Below, piece after piece: positions 9,965 through 59,750 of a DNA stretch of 64,000 nt; positions within the stretch are counted from its first letter, which is position 1; every line of letters starts with the position of its first letter. The position numbers and the translations under genes were made by a program. The notes under the pieces were generated by a model. It worked only from the letters and a program-made list of their open reading frames with translations, had not been told where the DNA came from and ran no database searches. This stretch comes from Polytrichum commune (lineage: Eukaryota; Streptophyta; Polytrichopsida; Polytrichales; Polytrichaceae), in contig OX485805.1 of the NCBI GenBank assembly GCA_950295325.1, positions 16,045,501-16,109,500 of the forward strand, written 5' to 3'.

Positions 9965-10615
9965 CGTTAGACTTTTGTTAATTTTAATAATTAATGCATT
10001 CAATTCCACTGTGATAGTGTTAAGTCTAAAACTGGCTAAGGAAATAATTCATTTCTGTGGTCTTTATCTAATGTAATTAAATCAATCACTTAACCATAGA
10101 AGGAGTCAATTGTGAACATGATATCATTACTAACTGTGGTGTGGCCTTTTGGTACTTGGTTACTTTACTGAAGAGACTATGGTTCACTCAAGGTGTGGAT
10201 GCCTTGGGTTTTCTGAGACTATGGCGTACTCAAATGTCTATGGCTGAGCTGTGACTCCCTGAATTGCAAAACACATTATAAGAGTGATGTTACTGACGAG
10301 AGTGGGTTGTGAGGGAGTGACTGATCAATTGCATGTACGGCTGTGAGTGATCCCCAACCTTAATTAAATCAATCCTAAAACTCACTCTAGAAGTCTTTTT
10401 CCCTGTGTTTGTTGTCCTAAATTCATCTTAATTCCCTTGTAATCTATCAATTAACTCAATGGTGATCCCTAGATGTAACACCTGACACTCATTTGGTCTC
10501 CCCTGTGTGGTTTTCTTAATTGGAACCCAATCTAAAAACCTATCTACACAAGCCCTTTAACGCGGCCTTGGAGAAAAACCTTCCCCACCCCTCCCCAACA
10601 CCGAGGCCTTGATTG
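9965..10615. other. No feature seen
   Basis: AT-rich sequence with scattered GACTATGG words. No coding frame, RNA gene or terminal repeat can be supported. Confidence 0.4.
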
Positions 10616-19649: not shown

Positions 19650-20048
19650 AGTAACTCCACCACTATACTAAATATGATATTTAGTGTCACCAATTCTAAT
19701 TGTCTTGCTCAATACTAATTGTAAACTGCAGTTTAGTGTCACCAACACTAAATGCTAACCCAACATTATTTGTCATTCCTTGTAAATTTTTCAGGGGATT
19801 ATTGATTTACAGTGTTGCAATCACTGTCACTCACCAAACGATTTTTCCATCCAAATTCAATCATCCATGACAACATTTCATCACAAGTTGCTGACAAGAG
19901 AAGGCAGGGTTTTGGCCAATCAATGAACTCATCCATCATCCATGACAATATTTGTTCACTTATTCATAGGAAAAGTCATCATCCAAAAAGTTACCATAGT
20001 GACATTGAATACCACATGACACTAAATATCATATTTAGTGTAGTTACT
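19650..20048. mobile_element. About 0.4-kb MITE with palindromic ends
   Basis: The left end AGTAACTCCACCACTATACT and the right end, read in reverse complement, AGTAACTACACTAAATATG agree over about 35 bp. Both contain the palindrome ACTAAATATGATATTTAGT (19667-19685 on the left). Further TTTAGTGTCACCAACACTAAAT copies lie inside. A diverged relative with the same ACACTAAAT/ATTTAGTGT words is at about 29745-30000. No coding capacity. The target duplication is not clear, so the superfamily is open. Confidence 0.65.
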
Positions 20049-29355: not shown

Positions 29356-30703
29356 GTTTGTTTTTCTTGCCCATGTGGTCCGAGTTCATGGTCCGAGTTC
29401 ATGGTCCAACTTCCATGGTCCAACTTCTTAAATTAGTTTGAAAACCTTGGGCCCCTCACTAGGTGTAAACCGAACGTGGACCAAAAAGAATGACCATGCA
29501 CCAAAAAGTGAATGTGCTGATTTGTTTTAATACATGCCCAAAAAGGGCAGTTTTGAAAAAAATTCAAGTTTGACCATTCTCTGTCTTCTCTTGGGCTTCA
29601 CTTGTCTTCACTTCTTGTTAAATGTGTCAAAGATGTGGCTTGCAAATCTTCTCACAACAATTTTTACAAAAAAATGACCGATTTAATTTGTACATGTGAC
29701 ATGTAATTTACATGTGACATGTACCTTGTGTTGTCACTACACTAAATAGGATAATTAGTGTTTGTTTAAATTTAATGTGGTTACCACCGTACCTTGCTCA
29801 ACACTAATTTTCAATTCTTTGATAATTAGTGTTAGAAGATTTGCTAGAAGATTTTCATATCCTTAGTAACACTAAATTAAAACATGTAACTTCCACATAT
29901 TACCTTAGTTGATATTTAATGTTTAAGTTTACATTTAATGTTACTTACTTTTATAGGGTGTATGCGTTTGTATTTAGTGTATCAAACACTAAATATCTTA
30001 TTTATTTTAGTAGAAAACTATGCGAAAAAAGAACCACAATCGTTTTCTCATTGCGGTTCTTTTGACCACCCTGATCTACAGTCGCTACACGACTACAAAT
30101 TTTTATTTTTTTTGCAACTATAAATTTAAATTTTTTGGGGCGTGTAATATACCCTTGGAAAGGTATTTTCCAGACCTCTCCGATGGCATATTACAAGCCC
30201 CCAAATTCCAAACGTTTTTGATAGACTAAAAAAAAAAATTTGCACTCAAATTCTTGAGTTCTAGATGTTCCACATTGTTTGATGAAACATGTGGGAGCAA
30301 GTTTAAGGGGTAGGGCATGGAAGAAATGATATGTCATGATATGATCTAGGCACATAGAGGGCGGACTTGCTTCTCAAGATTCATTACATCATATAGATGT
30401 TGAAAAGTGAGCCTTGCCTAGTGGGAAGGGTTGTATGTAAACCGCCCAAAAAAATTCATCAAAAAAGTATTATAACAACATTTCTCTTCCATGGGCCCTT
30501 GCCTTTCCTACCATACCACCTCTCTCACCGCAAAACCCATTGGACCATGAAAATTGTATTTTGGGGACCTCGGCCTTTGTGGTCCCTTTGCCATTTTTTC
30601 CTTAGTGTAAACCAAAGTGGTGCCGGTATGAGTTCAACAGCCAATCAATGCTCTTACAGCACCTTGGTCCGACTTTGTGGTCCATAGTGTAAACCACCCC
30701 TGA
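29356..30703 (+). mobile_element. hAT-like non-autonomous element, copy 1, split by a nested insertion
   Basis: Segments 29356-29620 and 30446-30703 match, in order and in reverse complement, the continuous element at 45249-45806: shared words include GACCATGCACCAAAAAGTGA, CCCAAAAAGGGCA, and at the other end TTTTTTCCTTAGTGTAAACC and TCCATAGTGTAAACCACCCC. The right end reads, inverted, TCAGGGGTGGTTTACACTATGG. The left terminal repeat is missing. About 0.8 kb (29621-30445) has been inserted between the halves. hAT is inferred from the TAGGG-type ends; no transposase is present. Confidence 0.65.
29621..30445. mobile_element. Insertion inside the hAT-like element, containing an ACACTAAAT-type MITE
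   Basis: This DNA is absent from the second family member at 45249-45806. About 29745-30000 shows repeated ACACTAAAT / ATTTAGTGT words like the MITE at 19650-20048, including TTTAGTGTATCAAACACTAAAT near 29975. The rest is unassigned. Exact insertion borders and a target duplication were not resolved. Confidence 0.5.
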
Positions 30704-33700
30704 GCCTTCCAGCTCCATTTTCACACCTCTTTGTTGCCCTAGCACATGACTTTTGTCAACCATAAAGTGGGTAATAACTCTCACTTTTGGCAATCACTGC
30801 AAATGCATCAAAGGTATTCACCTTGAATAAGTCCCATAAGCTGTCGAGAATGAAATGTTTCCCAAAACCACAAACTTGATATATCAATTCCTCTAGCATT
30901 TCATGCATTCCAAACATTGCAATCTGAGGACAGCAGCGCTATTCATCATTTTGTTAGAACTAGAGGAACCAAAACCAGGGCAATGCCACCATTAATTGAG
31001 CCTCAATTGATTGGGGTTCCTTTCTGTTCAAAGATACATACTAATTCATTTAGTGTGAGTACTATAGAAAGTGAATGACCAAAACTGAGGTCCATAGAGT
31101 TTGTGCCTAAAAAATGTACTCAGGTAGAATAATGTACAAAACAGGCAATGACAGCCCTGTCTAAGAACTGCACAAATTCTCAAATTTTAAAACGCAAGAG
31201 TACTGCAAACTTTGTGCAGCGACAAACTGCCATATCTGCCTTCACAAAAGTTAAGCTCAATTTCCTCTAACGCAATCCTCAGTCCCCAGATCATCGGGGG
31301 AACATTTACACACTTCGAGCCAGGCTGACAAAGAAGCTGTGCCAAAGCATTCTAATTTAATTCTGCACCTGAATCGAGGCATTTTCATGCATGACCTGCA
31401 GGATATACTTATGGAAAGACACACACACACACGAGCATTGGAAAGATCGAGGCGTATTCAGCATGTCAAAAGCGCTTCTTGTCAGTCACCCGACTTAACT
31501 CATCAAATGCTTTGTATTTCCAGCATGTTGTGGCATTTGTGGAAAATTCGGACACTAGGTAGACATAAATTTAAACTGCCTGCCATGCACTGGTCACTGC
31601 CAGAGTTTGGATCATGGACAAGCCTCAGAACAACGGCACCCCAATATCTCAGCTTCAATTGTGAAATATCTCCTGAATCTTATGGTCTTGAATGGCTGCC
31701 ATGATTATTGGGCAGTTACCCTTGCACGTAGCAGCTTTTTGAGTCCTTAAGTAACTGCAAAAGAGTAACTGGCAGCTTCAATAAAATATTTCCTGCCTGT
31801 ACAGAATAAATACTTGTTTCTCTATTAATCCACCCATAATGCCTTCAACTGCTCTGAGTTATTTGTATATGCTTCAGAGAGCATTTCCATAATCCGAGAA
31901 AGAGTTGCATCCAGTATTAATTAAGTAGTCCACTACAGACTTACTTGCTTCCATGATCTGGGATTCTGACTTCTAGAGAACCCACAGCATGTGAACTATT
32001 GAGTTCTATTTTCTTCAATGACCTCGCGGTTATCAAGATCATTATGTAGTAGCCTGGAACACTGAACATTCGAGGACATAGCAGTCAGAGACTAGAGTTT
32101 AGACACAAGGTTGCTGAATATCTGATTGGTGAGACTGTGAACCTAAAGAAATCAGGAGATATTCATCACACAAAATTGAGAGGAGCTGACAATTCTAAGA
32201 AATATCTATCAGGAGCATTCCAAGTTGGACATAACATTACTCAGCTGATGAGCTGCAATGAACGCGGAGAACCGACAGCTAGTTACAGATGAACCAGTTG
32301 AGTTTAACAAATAACCGGTTGAAGTTCGAGACTTCAAGATGAATACCGACCATTTACCTGGTTATGCTCAAAAATCTTTCCGGACAACGATGAGTTGTGT
32401 TTATGGGTCCCACAGTGGATTTAAGAATAAAGCCTCTAGATGTCGGAATCTCAATGTTGCAAACTGAATTTGAAGATACGACAATTAAACATAACTCATT
32501 AGTTGAGTAACATTATGGATGTATTTGAAATACAAATAGTCTTTTATATTCAAGGGGGATGAGCGAAGCATCAATGGACTAGAAAGGACTAGACCAAATT
32601 ATGGTATTTAGTGTCATGCACACTATTGGCGAACAAGTCTAAACTAGATGCCTAGAGGATTCAATGTGCCTTGTCCACTAATTATCAACATAATATTTTC
32701 CATCGATGTAAGTAATTTTCTAAAGTGACATTATGACAATTAGCATAGCACATTGGGATACTTAAGATGATAGTTTTGTGTTTTAGTATGCAAGGAAAAT
32801 AATATGAACATACTAATGGCAAGTGTTTATTTGTTTACATTTTAGTATCTAAGAGAAAGATAATCTTGAGCATACTAATGTCAAGTGTCATCTATGTACA
32901 CTTTTAATCAACTTGTAGACCATTGTGTAACATAGGCATATGACATAACTTAGGGTTCCTAGAACAAAGTGGTAATCGCACTAACACATTGAAAGTTCAA
33001 ATGACAAACATGAGCATAGAGAGTAAATTTTTCGGGAGTCAAGATGAATATCTCTTAAATTCTGAAAGTGTTTGAGTATAGTTTCTTAGAAGGTCATGGT
33101 TCTCTTTCAGTTATGTTCTTCAGACATGAATATGTACACATGCGATTTGAAATATATGAACTAATGTTTTGAATATGGCATGTCCACCTCAGAAGACAAG
33201 ATGACTGCAAGTCCCATATTGTACCTCATCAAGGTAGATTGCCTTGCTCAATGTGACTATCTATTGCATTAACAATTGAACTGTTAATTTAGTCCAACAA
33301 TTTGGTACCAGTGGCTGCTGGCTACGATGTTGCACCAACGCCCAATGTGTTCAAGCAAAAATGTCATATCATCTTAAAGGCTTGGATAAAAAGCAAGCCT
33401 TTCTCCATAGACCCACTTCTCTAATGCAATGTCTAATGTGCTTATATCCATGCACTTTACATCGCCTCAATTATTCCAAATTACAACAAAATTCTGAGTA
33501 TCTTATCACACGACTGCTACTAATACTCCTCTGGTAAGATGACTTCATGGAAGTGCAAAGTCAACTTCATGAACCTTCTAACTCATGTTATCGGAGTATT
33601 TTAGTAATTTTATGAACTTTTTAAATTAGTTCATGATTTGTTTAAATCGATTTCACATGTGGCACACCTCAATTTTTATGATAGTGGACTTTTCTCTAGC

Positions 33701-35842
33701 AACTTTATGAATCTTCCAAGCCAATTTTATGAATTTTCCAAACCAAGCGGTTTTTGTATTCTCAACTTCTCAACTTTTCGCCTTCTCATTTCGCATTCTT
33801 TGTCTTTTTGTTTTGCAACATCCGGTTGTTGGTGAGAGCCTTCGTACTAGGTCTACCAATAGAATCGATTTGGTAGTGAATTTGTGTGTCCAGCAGTGAT
33901 ACAATTCTCTAGTTCTCTAGTCGCCCATGTAGATATAACCGCATAGATGATGCACTTCACTTGCGGATCATAATGAGAAACAATAATGCATATGATGCTT
34001 TGAATTTATTTTTTCAGATATTGATTTTTCATTTGCAGTATGTACACATACAGAACTCTCATGTCAATTGCTACACTAACAAATCAGCCAAGAGATGCAA
34101 TATCATTTGACCTCCCTACCAAATCAGTAACAAACCAAACCACCTGCAAGGTGAATGGTTGGCAGCTCTTGTAAACATCAATCAACTGACACAAAAGGTC
34201 ATACTTCAAACTTAGGAATGAACTCAATCCTAGTAGACAAATTATGCCTATTACACCACCGTTGGCATTGCAGAGCAAACATACTCAGAGAATTACACCG
34301 AGGGAATATTCTATTTCCTCACCAAATTGATGTAGGTGTTCACCATGGAAAGTGGTCCAAAAGATGAATAGCTCAGAACCTTATGATTTCATTCCACAAA
34401 ATCGTTTGAGCCCCCAGAATCACCATGTGGGGAGGACATATGTTTGCAGCTCATGTTGCTTGCAGCAACGGCATGGAGATTGGTGTGAAGATTTGAACCC
34501 ATTTCACTTAAATGGATGCTACCAGAGAACTACAAAACACAACATAACCTACAGAGCCTCAAAATGTTTTGAATTTGATCCAAGACAGTGTTTCATTTCT
34601 ACTACTCAGTTACTAAAACTTTGATTTGTTGGTGTCCACTGTTTGACCACCACCACCACCCGGACCTGCAATTAAAAGCTCCAAATTTTGACAACAGAAT
34701 AGGATGGAGAAGGCATTTTTGTCTCCTTGATAGAAACAACAATCAAGCAAGTGTACATGAGACATTATTTGTGCCGACATGTATTCAAAGTAGGTCTTGT
34801 GAAAGCTCATACTGTTACCTAAGTCTGCAAGGATGCAGGAGAACAACCGTGCTCATAACCCTCCACGACACAGCATTCACACCCAATAAACATTAAAAGA
34901 CACAACTACAATTTCTCCAATATTCATCAAATAAAGTCACTTGAAGAGAATTAAACTGTAAGATGTGATCAAAAGTTCAGGTACATTATAAAATCTTAGT
35001 CTCAACCACCAACTAGGATAGGATTAACGAATGGGAGTGACAAGACTAGGGATAATTATGTTTGGATGCGAGTCTAGGCACTGTTTTGGGAACTGCTCGG
35101 AGAAAGACAAATTTATTCAAGCTGCTAATTTTCTCAGCAAACTTGTTTGATCGGATACTGAAGAGCACCGCCATGCATATCGACACCAAAACAATAATTC
35201 ATTTGTCTGATCATTCAGAGCCACGAATTGGTTCCAAGTTGCTAGTGTTGACAGAAAATAATATGCACCTGGGTTGAAGAGATCATGGTGGAGCGCATCG
35301 GATTGGAGACTAATTAGTTCAACCCCTTCCCAAATTGATCTTGAAATTTAAAGAAACAGTCAGCAAATCGGATCCGAACACATCAACTTAAGATCCCCCA
35401 ACTGCTTATATGTTCGAGTTTGCACTGCAATTGCAAAGCATACCAAGCTAAACCTCTGGAGGTATAACCAAACTTCACAAATCCAAGAACATCATCAACC
35501 ACAGATCTAGCCAAAATTGAATTAAAAAACTGCCTAAGAGGGAATCATTGCATCTTCACTTCTTTCCAAATGTAGATCTAGGCAAACACCATCATCTCCA
35601 TCCCAAAAAAAACCTTCACCTAACCAACTTCACATCTGGCAAATCCCAGGCATCTCACTTGCAAGCTCCGTGTTGCTATCTATAAACTGTCCGCTTAAAA
35701 TTAGAGCATTCTCGTGAAGCCCAACATGGAGGTCTCATATTCCAAGAGATGGACGGAGGGTAAGTCCATCTTGCAAGATCTAGAAGCAACAACGGCTCTA
35801 ATCTGACACCCAAAAAGAACAACAATGATAAGCAACTTGAAC
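30704..35842. other. Five-kilobase stretch without a supported gene
   Basis: Composition is more even than in the TE-dense parts, and frames up to 121 codons exist (31339-31704; 34352-34624; 34588-34896), but no domain is recognisable. A short CA repeat lies near 31421. It could be intron or UTR sequence of a gene whose exons are too short to see by eye. Confidence 0.35.
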
Positions 35843-36370
35843 TTAGGGCATGTTTAGACTTGGGGCCAAGGCCATTGTGAACAAAGGCCAATATGTCCCA
35901 TGTGGCATGCAAATCAGCCCCCAAGGCCATTAATAAGAAAGTAACCTAACTTTATTCATTGCTTTCATGTGTAAACCTATGTAGGTGGGGTTGGGGCCAT
36001 TTGGAGGTTGCAATTATGAGAGGGTTATGAGAGGTACTCATGAATTATTCTATGGATAATGATTAAAGTACAATAAATTTAGAATTTATCCCATCCTATT
36101 CAATGCTCAAAGAATAAACTACTACAAGCAAATAAAAGCTATGACAATGGCCTCAACTAGAGGGAAAGAGTCCACAAGGTTGGGAGCTCTCTTTTCCAAG
36201 GCTTGAGGCCATTGTCATGATGAATAAAATAATTTATTTGTTAATTGGCCCCAACTCATGGTGTAAACTTGAAGAGGCGAATCCCAACCTCTCTACCAAT
36301 GAGAGGAGTGGATTTCTTTCATCCCAACCCATTTTTTTGAGCCTTGACTCCAAGTCTAAACCCGCCCTTA
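35843..36370. mobile_element. hAT-like MITE, about 0.53 kb
   Basis: The left end TTAGGGCATGTTTAGACTTG (35843 on) and the right end, inverted, CTAAGGGCGGGTTTAGACTT agree, and the similarity continues into GGGGCCAAGG / GGAGTCAAGG. The same TTAGGGC--GTTTA-AC style of terminus is found on the elements at 29-30 kb and 45 kb, so they belong to related groups. No coding frame. A clean 8-bp target duplication was not seen. Confidence 0.7.
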
Positions 36371-37679
36371 GAGTCAAGGAGCTCGACAAGTGAGCCTCTA
36401 TAATATTTTCCTTTCACCATCCTACTTACATCCTAAAGAAATTTCACATAATTTGGGAAGAATAAATTACATTGGCCTCTGTAGGACTCTGTGACGCCCT
36501 ACAAGAGTGCCTAGTATACTTGTAAAACTTATATCTAACGAGTTTGAAATGAAGATTGTTCATGTCAGTTTGTATGTTCATAAGTTACAGCAATTCTAAG
36601 GTTCACTAGCATTTTGAGGTGTAAGTTTAGGTAACCCAAAGTTAATGGTTGTATTTATAATAGTTGTATTTATAATGTTTGTGGTCATAAATCAGGTAAT
36701 TTTTTGTAACCATTTAATGGGTGCTTATACAACTCATCTCTCTAGAAATTAAGAAATAAAACATATTTAATCTTTTCATTCAACGAAGCTTTGTATTGAT
36801 TATCAGACAAGACATTAAACTTAAAGTATTCTCTTAAGATTGAAGACCTTTATCCATACATGATATGCAATATCTAATGAATGGAGGAGATTCATAGTAG
36901 ACAAAAGTGGACTAGTCACAGTGTTCAAATTAAATATTGTAATACCTTTAATAAATATTTTATGTACTTAGAATTTGGTTATTAGGTTTAAGGTTTAAAG
37001 TAACATCTTTTTTACATTGTGAACATTTTTTAACTTGATAAAAAATTCATATTCGTTACATATCCAGAAAGTCTCAATAAAAATATCACTAACACAAATT
37101 ATAACTTTTTTTAAATAGTGGTCTATTTAAAATAACAGATGATATTTTTCATATGACATAAACATTAAAGATCAAGTATATTAAAAGATGCTAAAGTGAA
37201 AGAAGAGTGGAAGGCGTACAAACATGATTAAACACTATCTTAGGTAATTGGAGACTTTCCATTGTCTCAAATTAATATATGGATGACAACAACATGAAGT
37301 CACCCTAAACATATGCTATGGTACATTGGCAAGAAATATATAGTCCGATCCCAAAGTTAGTGGTTGGCCAATACAAGCACATTGCATAGAGCACTTGTTC
37401 ATGTACATTTGCAAATGTTATGTACTTTTGAGGAATGAATAGTGACCCACTATGATTTCTATGGTTTCCATGCTATAAATGTGGAGTTTGTGTCTATCCA
37501 ACTTAGACCATGCTCAAAATCCACTTTCTAATTAAAATATTAATTGTATCCTAGTATATGTAATGACGAATCACATCTTCATTCCACATTGTTGGTTGGT
37601 AGTATTTCACAAGAATATGTTGGAAATGAGGACTAGAGGTTACAATATTTATGTTGAGACAAAGCTCTTGCTATCCAAA
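36371..37679. other. AT-rich DNA, no feature
   Basis: Nothing supported except a short direct repeat (TAATAGTTGTATTTATAATG twice near 36657-36680). Confidence 0.4.
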
Positions 37680-40398
37680 TTAGTTTAGTGTACATCTTAT
37701 CTCCACAATGCAAAATGAGCACAAAACTTTCATGGCAATCCACTGCAACATGGAAAGACGGTGGAGGATGATTACTAATAGGCCAAACATAGTGGTCATC
37801 CTCATCAAACTCCTCACGAACCTCCCCATACCCAGAAGCCTAGCCTCCATAGCATGAACATTCACACAACTTTGGAGCCAAAAACCATGCCTCAAAGTAA
37901 GGGGGCTATCTTGGTGAAGGTTCATCAAAGCAAAACAAACACGTCTCCCATAGCCTATCCAAATTTCAATACGGTGGTGAAATGATCCACCAACATTTGC
38001 TATCCGCAAACATTCCCAATATTGGGATTAAGGTCATTGCAACCCTAAACCCTAAACCCTTATAATATCCTCCACATTTTTCATGGGCATTTTTTTTCCA
38101 AGGTTTGGGCTCCCCACCCGGTAACACCGTCTTGTCCTATTTGTAAACGTGCTAAACAAGAAGATACTCCGGTGGGCTCCAACCTTGCATCGTATGCAAT
38201 AGTTTGTACTCCATGGCTAGAATACCATCATCACACATGTAAAGCCCAAAATTGTTGAGCCTTATTATAGCTCCACTCCGAAAATATGGTTCAATAGATG
38301 CTTGTAGTCAAACACCTCCTCGATCATATGTGGGGATGACGGGAATGTTGTCCATGTACGACTTCATCAAGAGTGGGATAGTTAGGAAATCCTCCTCATG
38401 CAACTTCATGCTCCACCATCCAAAAAATACATCAATATCATTGTGCATGTGGCGCACTAATAGAAATGATACAAACATCTCCTTGAAAATGCCTTCTCAA
38501 CAACAAAGACCAATAGGTGAACACAAGTATGTTTTTATTGTCCTTGATGTAATTGTTTAGTTGGACCCACATAGTGGAGGGTAATGTTTTGGAAATCAGA
38601 GCCTCGTCGATAATTTTGGCAATGGTATCAAGCATACATCTTTTCCATCCAACATTGCCCTATATAGAGGTGTTGACCCATCATTTTTCAAATAACAATC
38701 TTGAAGAGTTGCATGCACTTACTCCAAATCACGTAAAAACTTTGCAAATGATCCAATGATGTGGTTTGAAACTGCCAGATACAAAGCAAAAGCATAATGG
38801 ACAAACTTGGCATCACCAGGTCCATGAACAATCATCCCTACAAGAACAATCAAAGAGTCATTGTTAAGTAAGGAATCAAAATTGAGTACGCCTATGCTCT
38901 TAAGTACCCTAACAATAGAGTTGTGAAACCCCACAAAATAAGAAACTGGATGTAAGATGTTGGAGAGAACCATACCCATAACCAAGATGAATAGCTTAAA
39001 ATGACTATCTATAGCCTTTGTTTGATGTGCAAAACATGGTGAGGTTGCTTTGGCATGGTTCATTTTGTCATGACTGACCATGAGGACCTCCAACGGCCTA
39101 GCAATGGACAATGCTCTATTTGTGTAATAATCGTTAAGATGTGCCTCTTGCATGTTCACATGCTTGAAATAGTCCACATTGCATAAGACTCGGTTCCGAT
39201 CGCATGTGCATCCCAAAAGCACTTCAACATCTCACATTTGGAACATTGAGCAAACTTGTCGCCGTTTCTTTTTATAATATAGTCCTTAAAGCTTGTTTTC
39301 TTTCTTAATAGAGCTCAACTTGGACAACGAAATTGCCTCCAAAACAACCATCTCACCAACCGCATTCACATCCAACAAGAGGTCTTTCCATTTCGATCTT
39401 GTGGGAAAAAACTTTTTTTAACAATTTTATCCCCTATTGAGAATGTTTGTGTTTTATGCAGCATCGCATCACACCATCAGCAAGGCACAATGATAGTTGC
39501 TAGAGGAGCAATTCTTTGTCACGTTGTTTGCCTAGGTTCCTTTGAACCACATTCCCATGGTCATGAAACCAACAACCTTCTTTGGTATAAGTTGTTTGTC
39601 TATAAAATTCAACCTTTGACACACCAAGAATGATGTACCATGCGGTACAACACACAACTATGTTTTCAAGCATGATCACTTTGCGTTCCATCTCATTCAC
39701 ATGCATCCCTCTATGAACATCAACTTCCTTTAAAGATTTGAGGCGGAAATCTCCAAGCCACATTTCTTTCCAAATAGCCTTCATCTTCTCCCATAGAAAC
39801 AACTGGCAATAACAATGAATACAACAATCCTTTATGGCCACTTTTCTAATGGACTCTTTTGTAAGCAATTCTTCATGTTCACACTCATTCTCAATGCGAG
39901 GAACATGTGCCAATGAATTACACTTCCGGAGGCCTTGGCAAGGTTGTATGTGGGCCTAGAGTTCCTCTTGGATTTGCATGTGGTGTTGCTCATGATTATG
40001 GAAGCTAATTCCTTCAAGTAGGACATTCCATAGTGACCACCTAATGTGAAAAAACGTTTGAGTGGGATGCACCTCAAAATTAACAAGAGAATCAAAGATG
40101 ACAAACATCCCTCATTGCCAACTAGGTTTTGATCAACACAATCATGTAGATGACTCTTACAACAAATACCCTCCACAACATGAACTCCACTCTCATTAAA
40201 GAGGACCACATCTAAATTCATCCATTCCAATCTTGAAAACCCAAAATACTCAACAATGGGCTCCACCAATATTGAGGCCAAAAGACTCCCCACATGCTCA
40301 TCCTCTTCACCATCATCAATCTCACCCTCCCCAACAATGTCAAGATCATCTTCAAACAAAGATAACCTACTACCTTCCTCCTCAAAGCAGCAATCCAC
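37680..40398 (-). pseudogene. Decayed DUF7869-like (RNase-H/DDE-like, transposon-type) protein gene
   Basis: Minus-strand frames follow one another over 2.7 kb in the order expected of one protein of about 900 residues. N-terminal part 40398-39832 has an acidic start, LKRFFTLGGHYG, then the NLAKASGSVIHWHMFLALR block. 39913-39500 has CCIHCYCQLFL, EVDVHRGMHVNEMERKVIML and VSKVEFYRQ. 39222-38719 has QEAHLNDYYTNRALS, VSHDKMNHAKATSPCF and SNHIIGSFAKFLRDLE. 38635-38438 has WVQLNNYIKDNKN then FTYWSLLL. A frameshifted continuation near 38470-38330 reads HNDIDVFFGWWSMKLHEEDF, and 38009-37680 is the C-terminal region (a shifted frame reads REEFDEDDHYVWP). The Asp-bearing HDKM, QLNNxxKDNKN and HNDID blocks correspond to conserved blocks of DUF7869-type proteins that look like RNase-H-fold transposases. 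Several frameshifts and stops make it a pseudogene. Assignment is from memory of the family. Confidence 0.65.
38041..38060 (-). repeat. Telomere-type repeat (TTTAGGG) inside the DUF7869-like pseudogene
   Basis: The plus strand reads AACCCTAAACCCTAAACCCT, i.e. nearly three TTTAGGG units on the minus strand. They sit within the decayed frame just after the block that reads KNVEDII, and are followed by a frameshift. Interstitial telomeric repeats of this kind can be left by break repair; chance expansion is possible. Confidence 0.7.
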
Positions 40399-40734
40399 TC
40401 ACTCCCTCCATTACGTCAATGCCTACACAAAAGTAGGTTGAAACAATCAACATTCTTGAACTCCGTCCATTGAGTGTTTGGGGCAATCGACTCAAATTTA
40501 GCTAGAGATAAAGTTGACCTACCCAAACGAAATATCTTCACAAATGAAACTTGGAAACATATACAAACAAGAATGTTAGCATACATTATCATTGTGAATC
40601 AACGTTTTCTCACCATAAATTCTTACCAAATATTATGCATGTCGATTTGAACTCAAATACTTGAAACAAACATTCTCATGACATGCAACTAAATGTGGAT
40701 GACATGTTGTGGTCCAACTACACATGAAAGGTTG

Positions 40735-41110
40735 GTGTGGATTTGGATCAAGCGACCCAAACCATTGAAAAGCTACAACATACGGCCCTACATTTTTGGG
40801 CCGACCAACCCAAACCCTTGAGCATCATAATTAACTTCAAGCATGAGTTTGGGTCGGTCGACCCAAACCTTGTCTCATGGATAAGGGGCCCCATGTTCAA
40901 GTTCATTGATGCAAACTTTAATACATTGATTAGGATTAGCGTGTTTTGGTTGGGTGATCGAAACCCATATCTATCTTCGATAGGATTTGAAAAAGAGTTT
41001 GGGTCAGTCGACATAGTTCTTATCCCTTGGAAAAGGGCACCTAGGATCAAGGTCACTAATGCAAACTCTAGAATTTATATTGGAGTTAGCAAGTTTCGGT
41101 TGACCTCCAT
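40735..41110 (+). repeat. 150-bp tandem duplication with coding-like periodicity
   Basis: GAGTTTGGGTCGGTCGAC at 40845 and GAGTTTGGGTCAGTCGAC at 40995 are equivalent points of a 150-bp unit. A partial earlier unit begins near 40735. Since 150 is a multiple of three, the plus-strand frame 40737-41120 shows a 50-residue repeat (EFGSVDPNLVSWIRGP versus EFGSVDIVLIPWKRAP). A minus-strand frame is open as well, so coding is not established. Confidence 0.75.
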
Positions 41111-57800: not shown

Positions 57801-59750
57801 GTCAAGATGCCTTCCCTAGAGAGGAGTTAGAGAGTTGTAAGAGGACACTATCTACTTCGCCATCCTATTACACAAAATGGAAATGTATTACCAAATCTCT
57901 TTGTGGTGGATAGGATTTTAGAAGTCTATTTTCAGCAGAGGTGGGAGTTTACAAAGATGGGCCCTTGTCCAACTACGTTCTACACTTAATATCCCAATTA
58001 GTGTTTGTTACTATTTAGAGATTCATAGTGCAATAATGTCTTATTCATGAGTTCACTTTTTTCTAACAAAAGTTCAATAGGTTGTTCAAACATTATCAAT
58101 TATAAGCGATTTTGTTTGGTAAACTACTACATTCTCGTTAAATAGTTATAGCATTGCGCAATTCTCAATACCAACATTCAACTTTGGGTTAATTAATGTA
58201 GCGTTTCCAAAGAAAATGGGCACCTGCGAAAAAAACTTTCTCAAAACAAACATGTGACAAAAGAAACATGAAACTAATGTGGAAAGGTAGGGGACTACAA
58301 GTGTAGAAGGTGGGCATGATGGGGAAAAAAGAGAGGGAGGTGGCATGCATGGAGCTAAGGCAGTGATATGGCATGGGCAAAAGAACAAAGTAGGACAATT
58401 AAAGTTTTGTTTCTTTAAATTCATTTTTCGTAAAGTGCTCCCATGGAGGCATGGTGGTGGGTCATGGGGGGCTTATGAGCATGGGCATGGGCATACATGC
58501 ATATGGCGGATACACACGGGCATGTGCATATGGTTGCATGGGTGCATGGATGTGTCATGTTGAGTTCATCTAGGATATCAATTCATATGCGTGGGTGCAA
58601 CATTCCGGGACAGCACATGTCCAAGCTAGTCCATTACATACAAAAAAAAAACAAAAAAAAGCAAAATGGTCTCAAATAACACGGATCCAAACAATTGCTC
58701 TCTTAAATTGACATGCCCAATATGTATACAAGCATGTTGTTTGAGACCATGTTTTCTATTTCATTTATGGTGAGATTACAGTATATAGCTCAAGCACATG
58801 CATAATGGGATAAAACTTCTACATTCATGTAGTGTGGCTCACATTATACACCTTCATGGAATAAAATAGTGTACAACCCCATACCCACTTCCTTCCTTTA
58901 GGTCGGAAGTCTCCAAATGCACATTATTTCAATCCAACATCATTATCGTAACCTACAATGTGGACCTATAATGTTATACACTCTGAATTGGTACTACATG
59001 TGTGCCTACATGATCATCTCAGATTTTAGCATCAAAATCAGATCTATAGTGTGACCCACAATATTTATCATCATCAGTGTAGTATAGATGATTCATTTTG
59101 CTTTTACCCTCTTGCTTGCAAGCCCGTGAAAACCAGCAAGAGAAAATGTATTGCATGCAAGCATGCCTCTCATTCATTCATTCAACAACAACAACGCCAT
59201 GTAATAGGATGTAAAATGATGGTTATATATTGAAGGTGATTTGACATCCGAATAGTTTCAAAAACCCCAAATTAGTCGAGCGAATCTTTATTAGGATGAA
59301 GTAGCCACAAACCTATAATGTGCAAGTTTTGAAGACAGATGGATGACTAGAGGCACGCTCAGTGTGTGCAACAATTGTCATTTGCATTGAAAGCATTCCA
59401 AGCAGACCACCAACTTAGGGTCACTTCAAACATGTGCCAAGAGCCGTGACCTTGTAATGGTGAGGACCCTTGACTCTCATCCAAAGGCCGTACCATGGGT
59501 GTTGGGAAAGCCATTTTATGTAGTCTTTGGCCCTCAAGCATAGTGTGAAGTGAGAATGAACCATGTTGCGGGACCATTGCATATTTTGTTGGCGGAAAAA
59601 GAGGGGAGGATTTGGTTTAATATAATATGTCTCCAAGTTTATCAATTTAAGATAACTACCTGGTGGTGTTTGTCTATCCTGGATACTGTCTTGGAATCTG
59701 CCATGCAGTCTGTCTTGAAATTTGTCCTGCTGGAAAAAATATAAAAAAGT
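54800..59750. other. Five-kilobase stretch without a supported gene
   Basis: Short frames only. Around 55620-56260 the plus strand reads like a fragmented protein (pieces such as KKLIEEIIQYSMDGPKF and KELKSWIYQVLL), possibly a decayed transposon gene, but no domain is recognisable. Homopolymers of C occur near 55914 and 57653. Confidence 0.3.

Follow-up and report, generated by a model that had tools for sequence, protein, structure and literature searches.

A 64,000-nt stretch of the genome of the moss Polytrichum commune (contig OX485805.1, positions 16,045,501 to 16,109,500; hereafter "the window") very probably carries the defunct 3′ portion of a DNA transposon, and a protein containing the Pfam domain DUF7869 (PF25273) is most likely the transposase of this element. 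An earlier note on this DNA had described a nearly full-length but decayed DUF7869-like gene at 37680–40398, with ordered conserved blocks on one strand, and the gene and its block order were both borne out. All six of the DUF7869-type blocks were present in order on the minus strand, scattered across several frames of the open reading frames (ORFs) of the window. When we scanned 10 window pieces with PF25273, which has a curated cut-off of 26 bits, the ORFs at 38438–38659 (E = 9.8e-7, 29 bits) and 38308–38496 (E = 1.8e-9, 37.9 bits) matched above it, while the other eight gave no match. An intact relative encoded by this genome, used as the tblastn query, was collinear with the window from 40395 to 37407 in three frames, with E-values down to 5e-115 and 1.6e-104, and a 185-aa match to A_tnp1 that includes the window piece with GMHVNEMER was 56% identical. 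At the nucleotide level, homology to the relatives that we call families A and B extended from 40415 to 37408 on the minus strand at 71–72% identity (71.3% over 3,084 bp in a blastn comparison with A1, a copy from family A). The recognizable relic is therefore wider than the interval first described, which missed a terminal inverted repeat (TIR) at 37231 and palindromes reaching 40868; it runs from 37231 to about 40868 (Table 1).

The relic is heavily decayed. Global alignment with A1 gave 74.8% identity (approximately 75% against intact A and B), and 56 of 67 gaps against A and 55 of 62 against B were not a multiple of three. In the second conserved Asp block, the relic reads QLNN in place of the Q-x-DN kept by the intact families, an Asp-to-Asn change. 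Only 21 of the 142 CpG dinucleotides in the aligned A1 stretch were retained (17 of 131 for B), and 318 C-to-T or G-to-A changes were counted vs. 141 in the reverse direction; because the C-to-T decay at CpG is so strong, we infer that the relic DNA was long methylated. The open piece at 38719–39231 also contains, at about 38850–38980, an insert relative to an uninterrupted DUF7869 frame from outside this genome (L064, described below), and the position of this insert matches that of a presumed intron of the A/B elements, which has the VTG and MIAHGHGD blocks on its two sides. A remnant of this intron seems to be still visible in the relic, which would mean that the relic probably derives from DNA copying and not from a processed transcript.

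At the 3′ end, a mismatch-tolerant scan combined with blastn against element ends located a sequence in which 23 of 28 bases agreed with the TIR of young A/B elements, the next best spot on either strand having 18/28. The A1 terminus aligned to 37231–37295 at 84.6% over 65 positions, finishing on the terminal base. Three copies of the palindrome typical of A/B elements were present upstream of the gene (40741, 40794, and 40847), with 3, 3, and 0 mismatches, respectively, compared with none in 100 shuffles; a fourth, weaker copy with four mismatches was found at 40476–40497. Searches of the window with 22 bases of the A TIR, allowing 3 mismatches, and with a mixed A/C core, allowing 2, returned nothing, and a general inverted-repeat search of the window gave no TIR pair among the 25 longest of 887 pairs.

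The evidence that this is a mobile element comes from its relatives, for which we searched a genome of 408 Mb in 64 contigs. Four matches to the LEAFY family (PF01698), which is characteristic of land plants and the algae closest to them, identify this genome as that of a land plant. The DUF7869 profile gave at least 150 matches (the best 150 of 1,491 candidates), with a top score of 195.6 bits, and relatives of one 170-aa window piece (the best 150 of 1,606 candidates) were at most 59% identical to it among the matches listed. Element ends, located by pairwise comparison of retrieved copies, defined a family A/B of approximately 16 kb (copy B3 measures 16,033 bp from TIR to TIR) with a TIR of about 28 bp, AACACTATATTCGTTAAATTGAGAC, and a family C of approximately 25 kb with the TIR ATGGGGATATTAACTAAAATGAG (A or C) CAA. 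Allowing up to three mismatches, the A/B TIR occurred 1,045 times in forward and 1,043 times in reverse orientation (2,088 in total, with none for the reversed control), and a 28-base version of the C TIR occurred 49 and 46 times (95 in total, control 0). Among the 91 exact A TIRs listed for contig C1, neighbors within 60 kb were arranged (+,−) in 35 cases and (−,+) in none, and 21 of those 35 spans measured 14–19 kb. The copies are dispersed and numerous rather than single.

Target-site duplications of 4 bp flanked 23 of 24 insertions of relatives, and the duplicated bases varied from site to site. Perfect duplications were found at 10/10 A/B copies and 10/10 C copies, which had been picked from the TIR lists for carrying both TIRs at the expected distance, and also at copy A2 and at two short TIR-bounded derivatives of 3.6 and 4.8 kb. 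Both derivatives lack the first 222–234 residues of exon 1, keep most of the DUF7869 gene, and hold a phosphatase fragment at most of the accessory genes considered below. The mobile ends and target duplications that the earlier note had expected to be informative were therefore recovered in the relatives, and the 3′ TIR of the relic itself could be recognized from them.

The same domain was found in the relatives. The A and C transposases and L064 scored 144, 158.2, and 145.7 bits, respectively, against DUF7869, all above the cut-off. L064 is an intact 963-residue frame on a 4.3-kb contig (CADCWO010000071.1, 1–4327) filed under a cyanobacterial metagenome assembly; it is the sole such match in its 4.8-Mb genome and may be eukaryotic contamination. 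Its transposase had no relative among the phages and plasmids searched. The A and C transposases were 40%, 52%, and 34% identical in three BLAST-aligned stretches, while A and the more distant type D were 24% and 37% identical in two. Common to five protein types (A, C, D, E, and L064) were the blocks HDKMD or IDGMD, Q-x-DN, and GHTH-x-D-x-D, and in all five the second Asp stood 40 and 42 residues ahead of the Asp pair in the third block. Judged from this conservation, D...DN-x(40/42)-D is likely the catalytic triad, and its three Asp may form the catalytic site of an RNase-H fold.

Both families carry a private set of short palindromes. The A/B palindrome, GTTTGGGTCG-NN-CGACCCAAAC, spans 22 bp (10-2-10) and, with up to 4 mismatches in 20, was present in 31 copies in A1 and 35 in B3; the C palindrome, CCCACGGGTG-NN-CACCCGTGGG, was present in 21 copies in C at the same threshold, and cross tests of the A/B motif in C and vice versa gave 0. 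Inside the elements A1, A2, and C1 there were 31, 30, and 21 palindromes, compared with none in 18.3 kb of flanks. Exact 8-base half-sites stood 2 bp apart in 25/26, 31/34, and 19/20 close pairings. With copies of up to 5 mismatches, half-site positions held 1.3–2.0 bits of information in A/B (70 copies) and 0.7–2.0 bits in C (24 copies), the spacer held 0.3–0.4 bits in A/B and 0.8–1.0 bits in C (mostly AA or TT), and flanking positions held at most 0.6 bits; because the motif was used to choose the copies, the half-site values are inflated, whereas the spacer and flank values are unaffected. Few palindromes lay in ORF blocks (5/31 in A1, where ORF blocks make up 48% of the element, 8/36 in B3, and 2/24 in C). 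Genome-wide, we found 10,011 exact sites for the A core (8-2-8) and 819 for the C core (9-2-9), with no site for the controls. When the first 100 A sites were compared by hand with the TIR lists, paired TIRs enclosed 63 of them, and a further 18 had a lone TIR within 16 kb. In the same comparison, the first 50 distinct C sites included 38 in TIR-bounded spans and 4 that lay upstream of an end without a partner, at a distance of up to 44 kb. On the L064 contig, where the TIR core was not found, a third, different palindrome, TTTAGCTCGA-N-TCGAGCTAAA, occurred in five copies with 0–3 mismatches, of which three precede the gene and two follow it (none in 200 shuffles), which suggests the same design outside this genome. 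In five D/E-type loci, no repeated short dyads were detected in the 5.1 kb taken of each, which is only part of those elements.

Fixed half-sites around a free spacer, within unrelated flanks, make up the pattern that a dimeric DNA-binding protein would select, and simple tandem duplication is disfavored as the sole source, since it would copy the spacer and flanks as well. The array upstream of the transposase gene is nevertheless partly tandem, mostly in 56–78 bp steps, so that duplication also contributes to it. A model for such arrays exists in the VANDAL elements of Arabidopsis, whose target duplications are longer than 4 bp. VANDAL elements belong to the MuDR group, and their VANC proteins bind short motifs repeated in VANDAL noncoding regions and cause loss of methylation (PMC5735166, PMC10398659). 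The likeness lies in a short motif that is repeated in introns and noncoding regions of one family and differs between related families, and in extra genes beside the transposase, while the motif of the DUF7869 elements differs in being a 22-bp two-fold palindrome with a 2-bp spacer and belongs to a different type of transposon; the comparison rests on motif arrays read from sequence, with no VANC-like protein identified in DUF7869 elements. By this analogy, we tentatively favor the possibility that the palindromes are bound by an element protein acting in anti-silencing, though we hold this with somewhat less than even confidence. An element-encoded dimeric protein might bind the two-fold palindromes, and this binding would probably serve to maintain expression of the element in the face of DNA methylation by the host.

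The palindromes could instead be binding sites of the transposase, used in assembling or regulating transposition, which we regard as rather unlikely but the strongest competing explanation. CACTA elements carry repeated subterminal sites, and some copies here do lie a few hundred bp from the 5′ end (252 and 352 in A1, 261 and 361 in B3) or, in C, near both ends (240, 431, and 614; 23699, 24582, and 24818; up to 5 mismatches); moreover, the motif differs between A/B and C, as do the transposases. However, most copies lie deep inside the elements, within the accessory region and the array that precedes the transposase gene, the 3′-terminal 3.8 kb of A1 and B3 held none (last sites 12238 and 12202), and the two short deletion derivatives kept just 2 and 3 copies, each with 4 mismatches.

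Besides the transposase, A, B, and C carry accessory blocks near the 5′ end, on the strand opposite the transposase and in identical order: a ParB-like piece, a methyltransferase (MTase)-like piece, an acidic protein, and a NIF/FCP1-like phosphatase. The NIF phosphatase was the sole accessory domain backed by Pfam (E = 4.2e-15 in B and 1.9e-10 in C), while "ParB-like" (motif DGQH) and "MTase-like" (motif FGGS) are labels given by eye only. Other accessory searches gave matches that were unrelated or below cut-off, namely GHBP (E = 0.00077, Pfam), Cas1 (E = 0.19, PDB), and a cytochrome c555 construct (E = 0.0012, PDB), and neither the ParB-like profile nor the transposase profile had a relative among the viral contigs searched. 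By tblastn, the A and B accessory pieces matched throughout at 72–83% identity. Between A and C, BLAST linked the MTase-like/p4 pieces (E = 1.3e-10), the MTase-like C-terminus (E = 0.005), and the phosphatase (E = 1.2e-12); the ParB-like pieces gave no match at E = 0.01 and are linked by a multiple alignment judged by eye, and the acidic proteins correspond by position alone. Ratios of nonsynonymous to synonymous substitution (dN/dS, Nei–Gojobori) between A and B, based on one pair of copies and on ORF blocks that are not verified exons, came to 0.21 and 0.125 in the two halves of the transposase. Among the accessory pieces, the MTase-like one had a ratio of 0.06, the acidic protein 0.16, and the phosphatase 0.28; in the ParB-like piece, dS was saturated (pS 0.755, pN 0.103). 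Among the matches listed, 86 MTase-like copies were obtained from 1,443 candidates (86 of 87 entries, the omitted one being a 27-aa piece adjoining an entry that was used), of which at least 54 had a divergently oriented transposase within 25 kb, compared with one convergent and two same-strand arrangements. Since transposase positions were taken from the best 150 of 1,606 candidates, MTase-like copies without a partner are not evidence of its absence. Genes beyond the transposase look to be kept by selection.

It appears improbable to us that the accessory genes were only recently acquired from the host and do nothing for the element. The NIF phosphatase domain is known from eukaryotic host genes, yet the gene order is constant in A, B, and C, the MTase-like/p4 and phosphatase pieces of A and C are linked by BLAST, dN/dS was low (0.06–0.28) in the three accessory pieces for which an A–B value could be obtained, and most of the MTase-like copies (at least 54/86) stand beside a divergent transposase. 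As a separate observation, silent-site divergence (dS) between A (L001/L007/L011) and B (L061/L062) was >1 or saturated in 3/4 accessory pieces and 0.27–0.45 in the transposase halves. Silent sites have thus diverged further in most of the accessory half than in the transposase half, so that A and B may be mosaics, as if parts had been exchanged between the two families.

We consider it less probable still that DUF7869 is a passenger and that another element protein is the true transposase. Plant transposons capture genes, the elements carry several of them, and the two short derivatives, which are without the beginning of exon 1, hence provide no proof that DUF7869 alone suffices for movement. 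Against this, DUF7869 is the best conserved protein between A and C (34–52% identity, where the accessory proteins reach about 30% or are not matched by BLAST), it has the conserved Asp triad and is also found in types D, E, and L064, and the short TIR-bounded copies have retained most of its gene and, of the accessory block, a phosphatase fragment at most. An old host gene that resembles transposon blocks by chance can be dismissed almost entirely, for although the window copy is single and divergent (relatives of its 170-aa piece at most 59% identical among the best 150 of 1,606), it ends in a TIR exactly where one is expected, has the family palindromes where intact elements have them, and is collinear with those elements across the gene.

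Several results weigh against the transposon interpretation or parts of it. The window copy is without a 5′ TIR, the best score of 18/28 between 40.2 and 56 kb being background, and no accessory gene was found in the window at E = 1e-3, so that this copy is either 5′-truncated or decayed past recognition. Of the 24 insertions, A1 had no target-site duplication (AATT vs. CCTA). Structure prediction reached a predicted local distance difference test (pLDDT) score of 32.6 for L064 alone and 39.7 for the L064 core with window pieces, too poor for recognizing a fold, and the transposase profile had no match to PDB sequences at E up to 1; the RNase-H/DDE-like fold proposed in the earlier note consequently draws its support from the three conserved Asp blocks and the fixed spacing of the second and third, and not from predicted structures. 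No second copy of the L065 or L066 deletion junction was found among the best 40 of 778 and 598 candidates, respectively, which leaves mobilization in trans without support. Some palindromes lay outside TIR-defined elements (19 of the first 100 A-type sites and 8 of the first 50 distinct C-type sites), and no result ties the palindromes to a particular binding protein. Finally, the ParB-like and DNA-methyltransferase-like identities were unsupported in Pfam, PHROGs, NCBIfam, and the PDB.

Table 1. Features of the transposon relic in the window (window coordinates).
Feature	Position	Strand	Basis or remark
3′ TIR of the relic, AACACTATCTTAGGTAATTGGAGACTTT on the + strand	37231..37258	-	23/28 bases as in young A/B TIR
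Putative 4-bp target-site duplication position, ATTA	37227..37230		Duplications occupy the same position in young relatives
Remains of the transposase gene, with homology to the two exons of intact A/B copies; frameshifts and stops	37408..40415	-	blastn, tblastn, gap pattern
N-terminal open piece, WHMFLALR block	39832..40398	-	ORF; inside A_tnp1 tblastn match
Open piece, GMHVNEMER block	39500..39955	-	ORF; A_tnp1 tblastn match
Open piece, first putative catalytic Asp block (HDKMNHAK) and LRDLE; spans presumed intron remnant	38719..39231	-	ORF; A exons vs. uninterrupted C and L064 frames
DUF7869 piece, second putative catalytic block, QLNN for QLDN	38438..38659	-	PF25273
DUF7869 piece, third putative catalytic block (HNDIDVFFGWWSMKL)	38308..38496	-	PF25273
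Three A/B palindromes GTTTGGGTCG-NN-CGACCCAAAC; intact elements also have them upstream of the gene	40741-40762, 40794-40815, 40847-40868		53 bp apart

Outside the relic, window stretches at 35948–36241, 29767–30007, 32812–32891, 33523–33815, 58459–58581, and 19858–19947 matched non-transposase parts of A, B, or C at 73–98% identity. Elsewhere in the genome, three A-type transposase copies stood approximately 83.8 kb apart in the same orientation (G000 C3:10611368, 10695143, and 10778985), a spacing pointing to a recent large tandem duplication. Beside A1, we noted by eye an RNase-H-like ORF of 585 aa (L001:53-1810:-) and a Ulp1-protease-like ORF (L011:3098-3838:-), both of which probably belong to other transposons, and at bases ~10510–10571 of A1 there was an internal copy of the terminal 61–62 bp, approximately 97% identical to the ends, that is perhaps a remnant of a nested or abutting insertion.

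The mechanism that we envisage is that young members move as DNA between their ~28-bp TIRs, presumably by cut-and-paste, with the DUF7869 protein cutting at the TIR ends and joining them to a target cut with a 4-bp stagger. The window copy would then be a former member in which the 5′ end is missing, the second catalytic Asp has been replaced, and the reading frame is broken.

Among described superfamilies, Sola is likely the home of the DUF7869 elements, a comparison made by description and not by sequence. Sola elements have a DDD transposase and 4-bp duplications, are mostly 2–9 kb with some >15 kb, and occur in a moss (PMC10741241). The relatives in families A/B and C resemble them in their 4-bp duplications, TIRs, large size, and moss host, and perhaps in a DDD-type transposase, suggested here by conserved Asp only. 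They differ in their 16- and 25-kb elements with an accessory block and in their family-specific 22-bp palindromes, features that go unmentioned in the Sola section of PMC10741241. The suggestion that the relic belonged to a little-studied transposon thus holds in that it is a transposon and that its Pfam name is obscure, yet the element fits an already described superfamily.

Other placements were rejected. CACTA/EnSpm elements have CAC..GTG termini and 3-bp target-site duplications (PMC12730594). They were ruled out here by the termini AACACTATATTC and ATGGGGATATT and the 4-bp duplications. Ginger transposases are integrase-like DDE enzymes. The duplications of Ginger elements are 4–5 bp (PMC10045372), a length that fits, but no Pfam integrase match was found in the A and C transposases (E up to 1) or in L064 and D (E up to 5). 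Academ elements encode a nuclease or helicase with the transposase, and AcademX duplications are 3–4 bp; Academ was rejected, as no nuclease or helicase domain was detected in four B accessory ORF blocks (E up to 5), nor was one found in the A and C transposases or those A and C accessory ORFs that were scanned (E up to 1). An early idea of a Helitron or Crypton, suggested by a hairpin near the 3′ end, was abandoned because TIRs and target duplications are present.

In the literature, the term DUF7869 was not found in any paper of the library searched, and the titles and abstract openings listed contained no report of the accessory block or the palindromes, which is not proof of absence; the shared accessory block and the family-private palindromes look new within the searches made. 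VirB is a ParB-related anti-silencer in bacteria (PMC10770331), and the ParB likeness of the accessory piece that bears on this comparison is by eye only. It is conceivable, and we offer it more tentatively than anti-silencing binding as such, that these elements are giant Sola-like plant transposons with their own sequence-specific anti-silencing or chromatin system, in which an accessory product would recognize the family-private palindromes and which would have evolved independently of VANC.

PF25273 itself carries no function in Pfam, and the present work ties DUF7869 to a TIR transposon, so that a domain of unknown function gains a role, with ends and target duplications that can be tested. 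Plant DNA transposons of 16–25 kb that carry more genes than the transposase were found in many copies. Should the palindromes serve as sites for a protein encoded by the element, the DUF7869 elements would represent a second plant transposon lineage with a VANC-type strategy, and, if this is true, escape from DNA methylation would become directly comparable between two independent transposon systems.

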